Below are positions 9,223-22,094 of a DNA stretch of 37,519 nt, one piece after another. The notes beneath the pieces are model-generated. The model saw nothing but the letters and a program-made list of their open reading frames with translations, searched no databases and was not told where the DNA came from. The number at the start of each line of letters is the position of its first letter. Within the stretch, counting starts at the first letter, position 1. Location of the stretch: NCBI GenBank assembly GCA_035317825.1, contig DATHGB010000017.1:1-37519 (forward strand), read 5' to 3'. This DNA comes from Candidatus Saccharimonadales bacterium (GTDB lineage Bacteria > Patescibacteriota > Saccharimonadia > Saccharimonadales > Saccharimonadaceae). Both the position numbers and the translations under genes were made by a program.

Positions 9223-9266
9223 AACCAAGAAAAATAGCTATCTTGCGATAGCTATTTTTCTTGGTT
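9223..9266 (-). terminator. Perfect 20-bp hairpin at the tRNA-fMet 3' end
   Basis: The arms at 9223-9242 and 9247-9266 are perfectly complementary over 20 bp with a four-base loop; read on the minus strand the loop is GCAA, a GNRA tetraloop. The stem contains AAAAA opposite TTTTT, so it serves as terminator of the minus-strand tRNA unit. The encoded ACCA 3' end of the tRNA (9262-9265) lies inside the upstream arm, so hairpin and tRNA overlap. The same hairpin could stop plus-strand readthrough. Confidence 0.75.
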
Positions 9267-9339
9267 GCGGGGGTAGGATTCGAACCTACGACCTTGTGGT
9301 TATGAGCCACACGAGCTGACCAGACTGCTCCACCCCGCG
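9262..9339 (-). tRNA. Initiator tRNA-fMet (CAU)
   Basis: A 78-nt tRNA with encoded CCA. The acceptor begins CGCGGGG and ends CCCCGCA plus ACCA, giving the C1:A72 mismatch that marks bacterial initiator tRNA. The D-stem GAGC/GCTC carries the A11:U24 pair seen in initiators. The anticodon loop is CTCATAA (CAU), and the stem is TGTGG/CCACA, so pairs 30:40 and 31:39 are G:C but 29:41 is U:A, where the usual initiator has three G:C pairs. It is the last gene of a minus-strand unit and is followed by a hairpin overlapping its 3' end. Confidence 0.92.
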
Positions 9340-9824: not shown

Positions 9825-9900
9825 TGGTGGGGGCGGATGGAATCGAACCATCTACCAAGTGGTTATGAGCCGCCTGCTCTAACCGATGAGCTACGCCCCC
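9825..9900 (-). tRNA. tRNA with CAU anticodon, probably tRNA-Ile2
   Basis: A 76-nt tRNA with encoded CCA. The acceptor stem is fully paired (GGGGGCG with CGCCCCC), so it is not the initiator. The loop is CTCATAA. The D-arm to anticodon-arm sequence TTAGAGCAGGCGGCTCATAACC, and the variable loop, closely resemble tRNA-Ile(CAU) of E. coli and B. subtilis, whose C34 is changed to lysidine by TilS. An elongator tRNA-Met cannot be ruled out from this gene alone. The anticodon stem GGCGG/CCACT has a C29:A41 mismatch and a G27:U43 wobble, which is unusual. The ftsB-like gene follows 10 nt after its 3' end. Confidence 0.85.
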
Positions 9901-19136: not shown

Positions 19137-20903
19137 TTAGTCATTTAGCTCTATTTTTAGAGAAAGATCTTTTAGCTGCGCCTGATCAACTTCGCTAGGC
19201 GAAGACATCATGACATCAATACCGGAGCCGTTCTTTGGAAAAGCGACAACTTCCCGGATGTTGTCTTCACCGGTAAGCACCATGAACATACGGTCAATAC
19301 CGAACGCGCAGCCAGCGTGTGGCGGAGCGCCGTATTTGAATGCGTTAATCATTGCGCCGAAACGTGAATCGACATATGACCGGTCGTAGCCAAGCGATCC
19401 GAAAGCTTCGTACATGACGTCTGGGTTGTGGTTACGAACCGCACCAGAAGAAATTTCGTAGCCGTTCATGACCATATCGTACTGGTCGGCAACAATATCT
19501 AATTTGTCATCAGATTGTAGTGCTTCGACACCGCCTTTTGGCATAGAAAACGGGTTGTGGCCAAAATCGATCTTTTTCGCTTTGTCATCCCATTCGTAAA
19601 ATGGAAAATCTACGATCCAAGCGAGGGCAATCTTGTTTGGGTCTTTCAGTTCGAAGTGATCGGCAAATTCAGAACGAAGCCGTCCAAGCACTTTGTTCAC
19701 GACTTCCCTCTTATCAACACCAAAGAATACGGCGTCTCCGTCTTTGGCTTGCAGCCGCTCTTTAATAGCAGTCAGTTCTTCGCCAGACAAGAATTTGGCA
19801 ATTGGTGATTTTGCCTCGCCGTTTTCGTACATAATGTAGGCAAGTCCGCCTGCACCTTCGCTTTTTGCAATGTCCGTAAATTTATCAATTTGCGAACGGC
19901 TAAGGCTTGCTCCGCCTTCGACGCGGATCGCTTTGACAACGCCCTTGTTCTTAAGCGTGTTTGCGAAAACGCTAAAGCCCGTATCGGTTAGTGCATCAGA
20001 TAAATCAGTCAGTTCCATACCAAAACGTAGGTCGGGTTTGTCAGAACCAAAACGATCCATTGCTTCAAGGTAAGGAATCCGTGGTACTTCATCAGTTACG
20101 AGTGTTTTACCCGCAAAACCAGTGACGAGTTGTTTGATAAGCGGTTCAACCGTTTGACGAACGACTTCACCGTCTTCGACAAATGACATCTCAAGGTCAA
20201 GTTGGTAAAAATCACCATACAAACGGTCAGCACGCGGGTCTTCGTCGCGAAAGCACGTCGCGATTTGGTAGTAACGTGATATGCCGCCTACCATGAGCAG
20301 TTGCTTGAACTGCTGTGGGGCTTGTGGCAATGCGTAGAACTTGCCAGGGTGAACGCGTGAAGGCACTAGGAAATCGCGAGCGCCTTCTGGGCTAGAGTTG
20401 GCTAGAATCGGTGTGGTTACCTCGGTAAATTCATTAGATTCCATATAATCGCGTAGCAATTTGTAATAAGCAGCTCGTTTTTTTAGCATCTCTTGCATCT
20501 TTGACCTACGAAGATCAAGATAACGATATTTCAGACGGTGTTCTTCGTTTGCCTGAGGTGCGTCTTCACGGACAGGAATCGGCAAGGGTTCGGATTTGTT
20601 AAGAAGCCGGATGTTTTCGGTAACAACTTCAATATCCCCCATTGGGATATTAGGATTTTTGAGTGTTTCGTCACGCTCTTTTACGATACCAGTGATTGAA
20701 ATAACGTATTCATCGCGGACTTGCTCTGCAAGTTTAAAAGCTTCGGCGTTTTCAGGTTGAATTACCAGCTGAATAATACCGGTGTGGTCGCGTAGATCAA
20801 TAAAAATCAGTCCACCATGGTCGCGGCGTGTGTGCACCCAACCGCTGACGGTCACTGTTTGGCTCATCTGCGCAGGTAGGTCGCGTACTAATGTTCGTGT
20901 CAT
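19137..20903 (-). CDS. aspS: Aspartyl-tRNA synthetase
   Basis: A 588-aa class II synthetase of the bacterial type that charges tRNA-Asp in the cytoplasm. The N-terminal OB-fold anticodon domain (SGWVHTRRDHGGLIFIDLRDHTG) is followed by motif 1, motif 2 (FRDEDPRADRLYGDFYQLDLEMSF), the GAD insertion domain (about 280-410), and motif 3 with GCAFGIDRMFMVLTG near the end. His29 in RRDHGG lies where discriminating enzymes often have Leu; from memory, His at this place goes with relaxed specificity for tRNA-Asn, so the enzyme may be non-discriminating. AAGGA lies 7 nt before the ATG. The leader upstream has a promoter, a short Asp/Asn-rich ORF and two hairpins. Confidence 0.96.
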   Translation of the reverse strand: MTRTLVRDLPAQMSQTVTVSGWVHTRRDHGGLIFIDLRDHTGIIQLVIQPENAEAFKLAEQVRDEYVISITGIVKERDETLKNPNIPMGDIEVVTENIRLLNKSEPLPIPVREDAPQANEEHRLKYRYLDLRRSKMQEMLKKRAAYYKLLRDYMESNEFTEVTTPILANSSPEGARDFLVPSRVHPGKFYALPQAPQQFKQLLMVGGISRYYQIATCFRDEDPRADRLYGDFYQLDLEMSFVEDGEVVRQTVEPLIKQLVTGFAGKTLVTDEVPRIPYLEAMDRFGSDKPDLRFGMELTDLSDALTDTGFSVFANTLKNKGVVKAIRVEGGASLSRSQIDKFTDIAKSEGAGGLAYIMYENGEAKSPIAKFLSGEELTAIKERLQAKDGDAVFFGVDKREVVNKVLGRLRSEFADHFELKDPNKIALAWIVDFPFYEWDDKAKKIDFGHNPFSMPKGGVEALQSDDKLDIVADQYDMVMNGYEISSGAVRNHNPDVMYEAFGSLGYDRSYVDSRFGAMINAFKYGAPPHAGCAFGIDRMFMVLTGEDNIREVVAFPKNGSGIDVMMSSPSEVDQAQLKDLSLKIELND

Positions 20904-20942
20904 ATAAATTCCTTGTTACGTAGTAATGGTAGAGGCTGGTGA

Positions 20943-20982
20943 GGGTCAATGGCTAAAAGCACGCCGAGCTTTTAGCCGACCC
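20943..20982 (-). promoter_or_regulatory. Large leader hairpin upstream of aspS
   Basis: Perfect 10-bp arms (20951-20960 with 20968-20977, loop of 7) are extended by five more pairs (20943-20947 with 20978-20982) after a 3-nt bulge. The stop codon TAA of the leader ORF is in the arm transcribed first. No U-run follows, so it is not a plain intrinsic terminator. A smaller hairpin (20983-20988 with 20999-21004) abuts it and contains the Asp and Asn codons. Confidence 0.7.
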
Positions 20983-21016
20983 GTTGATTATTGTCTGTAT
21001 CAACTCGCCATGTCAT
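20972..21016 (-). CDS. Putative aspS leader peptide
   Basis: A 14-codon ORF on the minus strand, MTWRVDTDNNQRVG, between the aspS promoter and aspS. It contains two Asp and two Asn codons within five residues (DTDNN). The ATG is 9 nt after an extended -10 box, so the mRNA would be almost leaderless, as for other genes here. The stop codon lies in the first arm of the large hairpin. This arrangement resembles leader peptides that sense charging of the cognate tRNA. It is short and was found by looking for structure after the fact, so coding is unproven. Confidence 0.4.
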   Translation of the reverse strand: MTWRVDTDNNQRVG

Positions 21017-21025
21017 ATTGGTGTT

Positions 21026-21034
21026 ATTTTACCA
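21026..21034 (-). promoter_or_regulatory. Extended -10 promoter of aspS
   Basis: TGGTAAAAT on the minus strand at 21026-21034 is an extended -10 identical to that of the 135-aa gene at 4129-4137. It starts the aspS leader about 115 nt before the aspS ATG. No good -35 box is seen. Confidence 0.55.
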
Positions 21035-21077: not shown

Positions 21078-22094
21078 TTATACGTCTTCGCGTTTCTCAG
21101 GATGATTATTACCACGCGGGTTATGCGCAGCAACCGCGCGGAGATCATCGTGAGCATCGAATTCATCGACTATCTTGTGGCCAATCAATGCCTCAATCAC
21201 ATCTTCCAGGCTTAACAGTCCGACTGTTTCACGAAATTCATTAACAACGACAAACAAATGATGGCGCGTACGAAGGAACGCAGTAAGGGCGTGCTTAAGC
21301 GTTTGGTCCTCACGAACGTAAAATACCCTAGGTTCCATAGCTTTACCAGCTGTTGTTGAACGCTTCGTATCAAGGGTTAAGAGATCTTGGATATGAAGCA
21401 TACCGACGACATGATCAATATCGCCGTCAACCACAGGAAAGCGACTATGTCCTGTTTTATGAAGGTCATCTAGGACGAGTGGACCAAGTAGTTCTTTGTG
21501 GCTAATACTGTCAATAACGCCCCGGGGAGTCATGATTTCTTTTACGGTACGATCACCAAACGTCAGACTATGCGTAATAAGCAGCTTTTCGTCGCTTGAA
21601 AGAAGCGTGCCTGATGTCTCAACAAGATGATGGAGCTCCTCACGGGAACTTAGCCGTACATTTGTAGTCGTTTCGGGTGCTACGCTTCGCATGAATCGGA
21701 GTATGCCTGCAAATTTTTCAACAAAGCGTAGAATCTGCTGTTCATGTTTTTCGTAAAGTTTTTGAGATTGGCGCTGCCACAAACCAATCCGCGCAATCCG
21801 ACCGTATTCTAAAGCAACAATAACTGACAGAATAATACCTAGCAGCCATCCGAACGTTACCACCGAAAGAACAACAAAAAGTACGAGGAGTAATGCCGAT
21901 AGAACTCTTTGCAAGGAAAAGACATCCGTTAGCAGTGCTTCACGCTTCATCGCAATTGCCGCCATATTATCCCCAATCGATTTGCGGCGTTCTAGTTCGA
22001 ATTTGCTTATTTGGCTGACACGCGGAACGACGCCCGACACAAATATCAACAGACCAAGGACAGCAATTTCAAGAAACAGGAATATAAGCATCAT
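21078..22094 (-). CDS. CBS-domain membrane protein (HlyC/CorC/CNNM-like)
   Basis: A 338-aa membrane protein. N-terminal hydrophobic helices at about 3-25 and 63-100 form a reduced DUF21/CNNM-like part. A cytoplasmic CBS pair follows: LTFGDRTVKEIMTPRGVIDSISHKE near 180-204 is the conserved first CBS start, and VFYVREDQTLKHALTAFLRTRHHLFVVVNEFRETVGLLSLEDVIEALIG near 255-303 is the second. The usual C-terminal transporter-associated (CorC/HlyC) domain is absent, and the tail is a charged, disordered stretch. CBS pairs bind adenine nucleotides, and CNNM relatives export Mg2+; this one is divergent, so ion transport is inferred. A TACAAT box is 9 nt from the ATG. The aspS unit follows on the same strand. 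Confidence 0.82.
   Translation of the reverse strand: MMLIFLFLEIAVLGLLIFVSGVVPRVSQISKFELERRKSIGDNMAAIAMKREALLTDVFSLQRVLSALLLVLFVVLSVVTFGWLLGIILSVIVALEYGRIARIGLWQRQSQKLYEKHEQQILRFVEKFAGILRFMRSVAPETTTNVRLSSREELHHLVETSGTLLSSDEKLLITHSLTFGDRTVKEIMTPRGVIDSISHKELLGPLVLDDLHKTGHSRFPVVDGDIDHVVGMLHIQDLLTLDTKRSTTAGKAMEPRVFYVREDQTLKHALTAFLRTRHHLFVVVNEFRETVGLLSLEDVIEALIGHKIVDEFDAHDDLRAVAAHNPRGNNHPEKREDV

Follow-up and report, generated by a model that had tools for sequence, protein, structure and literature searches.

The aspS locus and its leader

The window analysed here is a stretch of 37,519 nucleotides from a Candidatus Saccharimonadales bacterium (contig DATHGB010000017.1), and our interest lies in the short region that separates its aspartyl-tRNA synthetase gene, aspS, from the gene upstream. 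The features that we refer to are all on the minus strand.

21078..22094 (-), upstream neighbour, encoding a CBS-domain CorC-like protein; the same neighbour stands at 54 of 58 loci
21026..21034 (-), extended -10 promoter element TGGTAAAAT, read from the sequence, with its hexamer at 21026-21031
20972..21016 (-), leader ORF MTWRVDTDNNQRVG, followed by its stop; the frame is open, with an ATG, in 58 of 58 relatives
21016-21014 (-), ATG of the leader ORF, 9 nt past the -10 hexamer
21001..21011 (-), 5' strand of helix P0 (ATGG, GAGTTG), from a permutation test of cognate pairing; weak in the source genome itself
20993..20995 (-), sensor codon c-4, GAC (Asp); Asn or Asp in 58 of 58 leaders
20987..20989 (-), sensor codon c-2, AAT (Asn); Asn in 55 and Asp in 3 of 58 leaders
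20977..20982 (-), 5' strand of helix P1, GGGTCG; paired in 97.7% of cells, with double changes at 4 of its 6 pairs
20974-20972 (-), stop codon TAA of the leader ORF, within the strong hairpin 20982-20943
20951..20976 (-), P2 hairpin, supported by covariation, with loop TCGGCGT and the ORF stop codon in its 5' arm
20943..20948 (-), 3' strand of P1, TGACCC, partner of the P1 5' strand in the same pairing data
20926..20938 (-), 3' strand of P0 (CAGC, TC, CCAT), from the same permutation test as its 5' strand
20910..20914 (-), Shine-Dalgarno (SD) sequence of aspS, AAGGA, read from the sequence, in a G-poor, open stretch
19137..20903 (-), aspS, with its ATG at 20903, encoding a bacterial-type AspRS of 588 aa with the motif RRDHGG (NCBIfam PRK00476, 794 bits; TIGR00459, 670 bits)

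An earlier note on this DNA had described the promoter, the ORF, the strong hairpin and the stop codon lying within it, and had remarked that no U-tract follows that hairpin; on re-reading, the coordinates and sequences all proved correct, and there is indeed no U-tract after the hairpin. By folding prediction the 126-nt leader of the window reaches -31.5 kcal/mol (z -2.9), a value equalled by 1 of 200 shuffles. Elsewhere in the window, at 9262-9339 and 9825-9900 on the minus strand, lie two neighbouring tRNA genes with the anticodon CAT, one of which may encode tRNA-Ile2 or initiator tRNA.

Distribution of the leader

AspRS searches within the family, together with a reading of about 90 upstream regions, yielded a starting set of 13 leaders of like build; in most of the remaining family upstream regions aspS begins directly behind its promoter, with no leader. 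A first covariance model, built from the 13 leaders, had matches in 31 of 394 family genomes (one of them, in G171, looks like a chance match in coding DNA), and a second model had matches in 41 of the 345 genomes searched across the order, spread over 30 genera and about ten families. A third model was run on 380 genomes drawn across the phylum, where the window itself was the sole match and the other sampled Patescibacteria were without the leader, and on 59 leaderless aspS loci, where it gave no match even at E 1. It should be borne in mind that the covariance models take in the codon linker, so that the searches favour leaders with Asn or Asp there. In all we read 58 distinct leaders from about ten families of the Saccharimonadales, every one of them directly before aspS and present in one copy per genome. 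A DNA pattern search among named genomes found the leader before aspS in records of Saccharibacteria or MAGs only, including the complete genome CP025011; the pattern matches outside the Saccharibacteria look like chance and lie in coding DNA. As a leader was detected in only about a tenth of the order's genomes, it is dispensable for aspS.

An alignment of relatives had been set beforehand as the test that could refute the earlier note's proposal of a leader ORF with Asp and Asn codons, and the proposal withstood it: every relative with the structure keeps both the ORF and the Asp/Asn codons. In the many relatives without the leader the whole unit is missing, never the codons alone, and aspS follows directly behind the promoter. 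One genome (G034, locus L014) lacks the entire leader that is found in two members of its genus (G099, L009; G078, L012) while its promoter is nearly identical to theirs, and its aspS ATG occupies the place of their leader ATG, as if the leader had been cleanly deleted. In another genus, two genomes (G067 and G188, loci L043 and L044) have a long and nearly perfect inverted repeat, TAGTACCCTTATA...TATAAGGGTACTA, lying over the promoter region of aspS; it resembles a small mobile element or a different type of leader.

A short ORF with two fixed codon positions

An ATG-started frame that reaches the hairpin in phase with the Asn/Asp codons is found in all 58 leaders, and the other two phases offer such a frame in 0 and 1. 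A TGn stands ahead of the TAnnnT hexamer in 52 of the 58, and the distance from the -10 box to the leader ATG is 6-20 nt (median 8.5). From the position of the -10 box, and in the absence of mapped 5' ends, we predict that the ORF has either no 5' UTR or only a very short one.

If codons are numbered backwards from the one just ahead of P1 (CGG), Asn or Asp stands at both c-4 and c-2 in 58 of 58 leaders, and at the neighbouring codons c-1, c-3 and c-5 in only 2, 17 and 18. The ORF and its Asp/Asn codons, inferred in the earlier note from a single genome, are thus real and above chance in the relatives, on the strength of the invariant frame and the two fixed positions. Mapped on trees, c-4 has undergone 11 switches between Asn and Asp and 13 synonymous changes, and no change to any other amino acid; by codon position, in the trees of the two AspRS types, these are 6+5 changes at the first position, 6+7 at the third and none at the second. 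Each of c-5, c-3 and c-1, by comparison, shows 14-17 amino-acid changes per tree. At c-2 the Asn codon is AAT in 53 of 55 leaders, against 190 of 752 (25%) of the Asn codons in aspS, the bias that a slow sensor codon should show.

In most leaders the ORF stops inside P2, in three just before P1, and its length varies in multiples of three while that of the hairpin is constant. The peptide downstream of the sensor codons varies with the changes in P1 (RVG, RAG, RIG, WIG, or a stop), and because the changes in P1 alter the peptide past those codons, a peptide arrest motif is unlikely.

Three covarying helices

The check that the earlier note had proposed, for compensatory stem changes, came out in favour of structure, with three helices (P0, P1 and P2) covarying across relatives. 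P1 pairs in 97.7% of cells and has compensatory changes at 4 of its 6 pairs (GGGTC/GACCC, GGGCT/AGCCC, GGATT/AATCC, GGATC/GATCC and GGTCC/GGACC are examples); the joint covariation score of P1 and P2 exceeds that of all 500 shuffles. P0, an outer helix that embraces the codons, joins the first codons of the ORF to the stretch after P1. In each of two separate sets of 29 leaders its cognate strands pair better than in any of 20000 permutations (p<=5e-5), the linker control giving p=0.54. When ten regions of the leader were scanned all against all, exactly three pairs proved strongly coupled, P0 (z -7), P1 (z -10) and P2 (z -15); no helix that would compete with them appeared. The small hairpin at 20983-21004, in which the earlier note had placed the codons, is not conserved: it occurs in the source genome only, and in relatives the Asn/Asp codons are unpaired between P0 and P1.

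Conserved sequence is found at P1, in the loop GGC of P2 and at a downstream AGCC. A pseudoknot between the last two was considered and rejected for want of an overall signal (p 0.13 and 0.49; z +1.1); matched changes in loop and downstream stretch do occur in three related genomes (GGC/GCC, GGGC/GCCC and GGAC/GUCC).

AspRS as the source of both charged tRNAs

The suggestion that this AspRS is non-discriminating, and the accompanying proposal to look for AsnRS and GatCAB, are supported by several observations. AsnRS passed the cut-off in 0 of 56 genomes, and GatB is present in 56 of 56 (in 55 over the cut-off); the 588-aa AspRS has His in its RRDHGG motif, and a second, shorter type of AspRS scores over the cut-off as an aspartate--tRNA(Asn) ligase. 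On these grounds we take AspRS to feed both Asp- and Asn-tRNA, which would account for the interchange of Asn and Asp at c-4.

Of the 58 genomes with the leader, 30 have the bacterial and 28 the archaeal type of AspRS behind it, both types in one and the same genomic slot, and the CBS-domain gene lies directly upstream at 54 of 58 loci, which include both types. From this arrangement of genes we infer that aspS has been replaced in place at least once with the leader kept. As one leader precedes two types of AspRS, it is the product of the enzyme that matters, and not its make.

A proposed sensor of AspRS output

Comparison demonstrates, at the level of sequence, a translated frame, two Asp/Asn positions, three helices and a tie to aspS. 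We propose that together they form a leader-peptide sensor of AspRS output, in which a stalled ribosome prevents formation of a P0-P1-P2 rod and aspS expression goes up, a reading that we consider highly probable. The transcript would start a few nucleotides before the leader ATG, and a ribosome would translate the short ORF. AspRS would make both Asp-tRNA(Asp) and Asp-tRNA(Asn), the latter being turned into Asn-tRNA(Asn) by GatCAB; because AspRS charges both tRNAs and there is no AsnRS, Asp and Asn codons would report on one enzyme. With ample charged tRNA, the ribosome would reach the stop codon inside P2 and leave, and the RNA would fold into the rod. Were either tRNA short, the ribosome would wait with c-4 or c-2 in its A site. 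Taking the usual size of a ribosome footprint from general knowledge, we infer that, with c-4 occupying the A site, the ribosome would end just before P1 and cover about 80% of the P0 5' strand, and that with c-2 there it would end at the last base of P1, blocking the 5' strand of P1 and some of P0. With the rod blocked by the waiting ribosome, expression of aspS would rise.

The sensor step is strongly supported by the comparative evidence, and very probably the leader senses whether AspRS keeps up, by a readout that is not that of the textbook. That the ribosome stalls, in which direction expression moves and how the signal is read out are inferred, in the absence of expression, ribosome or 5'-end data; for the direction we rely on the logic of supply and demand.

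Alternative explanations and the readout

It is also possible that the logic is the opposite, aspS translation being coupled to ribosomes that finish the leader ORF and then scan or reinitiate. The short gap from stop codon to aspS (about 60-75 nt), the predicted leaderless initiation and the open SD would all suit such a coupling. However, a shortage would then lower AspRS, which makes no regulatory sense, and reinitiation would not require a conserved P0 and P1; we regard this explanation as unlikely.

Slightly less likely still is a structured RNA that binds a protein or ligand, in which RAYnnnAAU, the linker left unpaired, would serve as a nucleotide motif and the ORF would be a by-product. 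The conserved sequence at P1, loop and downstream AGCC fits this idea, as does the location of the linker in an internal loop, a frequent place of binding sites. It does not explain why ATG and frame are kept in 58 of 58 leaders (other frames 0-1), why ORF length, but not hairpin length, varies by multiples of three, why c-4 changes only synonymously or between Asn and Asp, or why the downstream gene is always the single enzyme serving both codons. Even so, comparison by itself does not wholly disentangle a RAY motif acting at the RNA level from the meaning of the codons.

We would rate just as low a classical attenuation of transcription, mediated by the ribosome through a terminator and an antiterminator. 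A leader ORF with cognate codons and a hairpin overlapping its stop codon are what it would predict, but the elements that would execute it were not found. The leaders have no U-tract (their longest T run is 1-4), which, as far as our tests go, excludes an intrinsic terminator as the readout, and no mutually exclusive helices came to light, strong coupling being confined to P0, P1 and P2. The earlier note had left room for control through Rho, an idea that can be dropped: no Rho gene passed the family cut-off in any of 16 genomes of the order, and the weak matches are as long as subunits of ATP synthase.

AspRS might also regulate its own gene by binding a tRNA-like leader, in the manner of ThrRS on thrS. 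This has in its favour the strict tie of the leader to aspS, but is very improbable given that two different AspRS types share one leader, that there is no tRNA or Rfam match, and that the ORF would be left unexplained.

As to how the proposed ribosome-gated sensor is read out, masking of the SD was rejected, since in folding predictions the SD is not paired and its openness is unchanged by ribosome position; the 12 nt before it are nearly free of G in the 58 leaders. A TAAC occurs within 25 nt of the aspS start in 29 of 58 leaders and before 5 of 40 ORFs of the window. No readout has been identified, and we infer that the most likely one is rod-dependent early loss of the transcript or reduced ribosome loading.

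Relation to known leaders

Rfam gave no match in the window or in 18 loci, and no T-box match, and a search of the literature on aspS leader peptides, Saccharibacteria leaders, Asn codons and CPR riboswitches found nothing on the element described here. An unspecified aspS leader was listed in Shewanella in a 2009 prediction. Nothing comparable for AspRS, or for this little-studied phylum, is found in Rfam or the papers searched.

With leader-peptide attenuators in general the aspS leader shares a short ORF, its translation inferred from sequence alone, that is rich in codons for the amino acid served. The trp, his and pheST leaders are ribosome-mediated transcription attenuators, with a short ORF that contains regulatory codons and a stop within a hairpin. 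The leader of ilvB1 in M. tuberculosis is another such attenuator (PMC13236596). The aspS leader has the same short ORF with regulatory codons and the same stop codon inside a hairpin; unlike them, it has no terminator/antiterminator pair and no U-tract, and two amino acids would be sensed interchangeably. T-box leaders control aspS and asnS in Firmicutes, sensing by tRNA binding. They, too, act at the synthetase gene to control the charging of tRNAs with Asp or Asn, whereas the aspS leader has no T-box match and its proposed sensing is by translation. In erm-type translation attenuation, the position of a ribosome on a leader ORF alters RNA folding. The same is proposed here, but folding predictions have the SD sequestered in neither state.

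By analogy, the aspS leader would work like a leader-peptide attenuator, and its closest counterparts are the leaderless polycysteine ORFs of mycobacteria. In these, ribosome speed on a leaderless short ORF controls downstream cysteine genes (Canestrari 2020, via PMC9031893). Both systems have a short ORF, known or predicted to be leaderless, with codons for the relevant amino acid, and they differ in phylum, codons and target: cysteine genes there, and here a synthetase gene, with the codons inside a covarying three-helix RNA.

Implications

A ribosome-gated rod that dispenses with terminator, Rho, competing helix and SD masking, and that reads two amino acids as one signal, is a possibility that we advance only tentatively and are somewhat inclined to doubt. 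If true, it would constitute a new class of translation-sensing leader. With neither a terminator nor Rho nor masking of the SD in evidence, the leader seems to use an output step not yet understood. The interchangeable Asp and Asn codons of the putative sensor would turn the indirect route to Asn-tRNA into a visible regulatory signal, and the presence of one leader before two types of AspRS shows that, in the Saccharimonadales, a presumed regulatory leader has survived replacement of the very enzyme it is taken to control.
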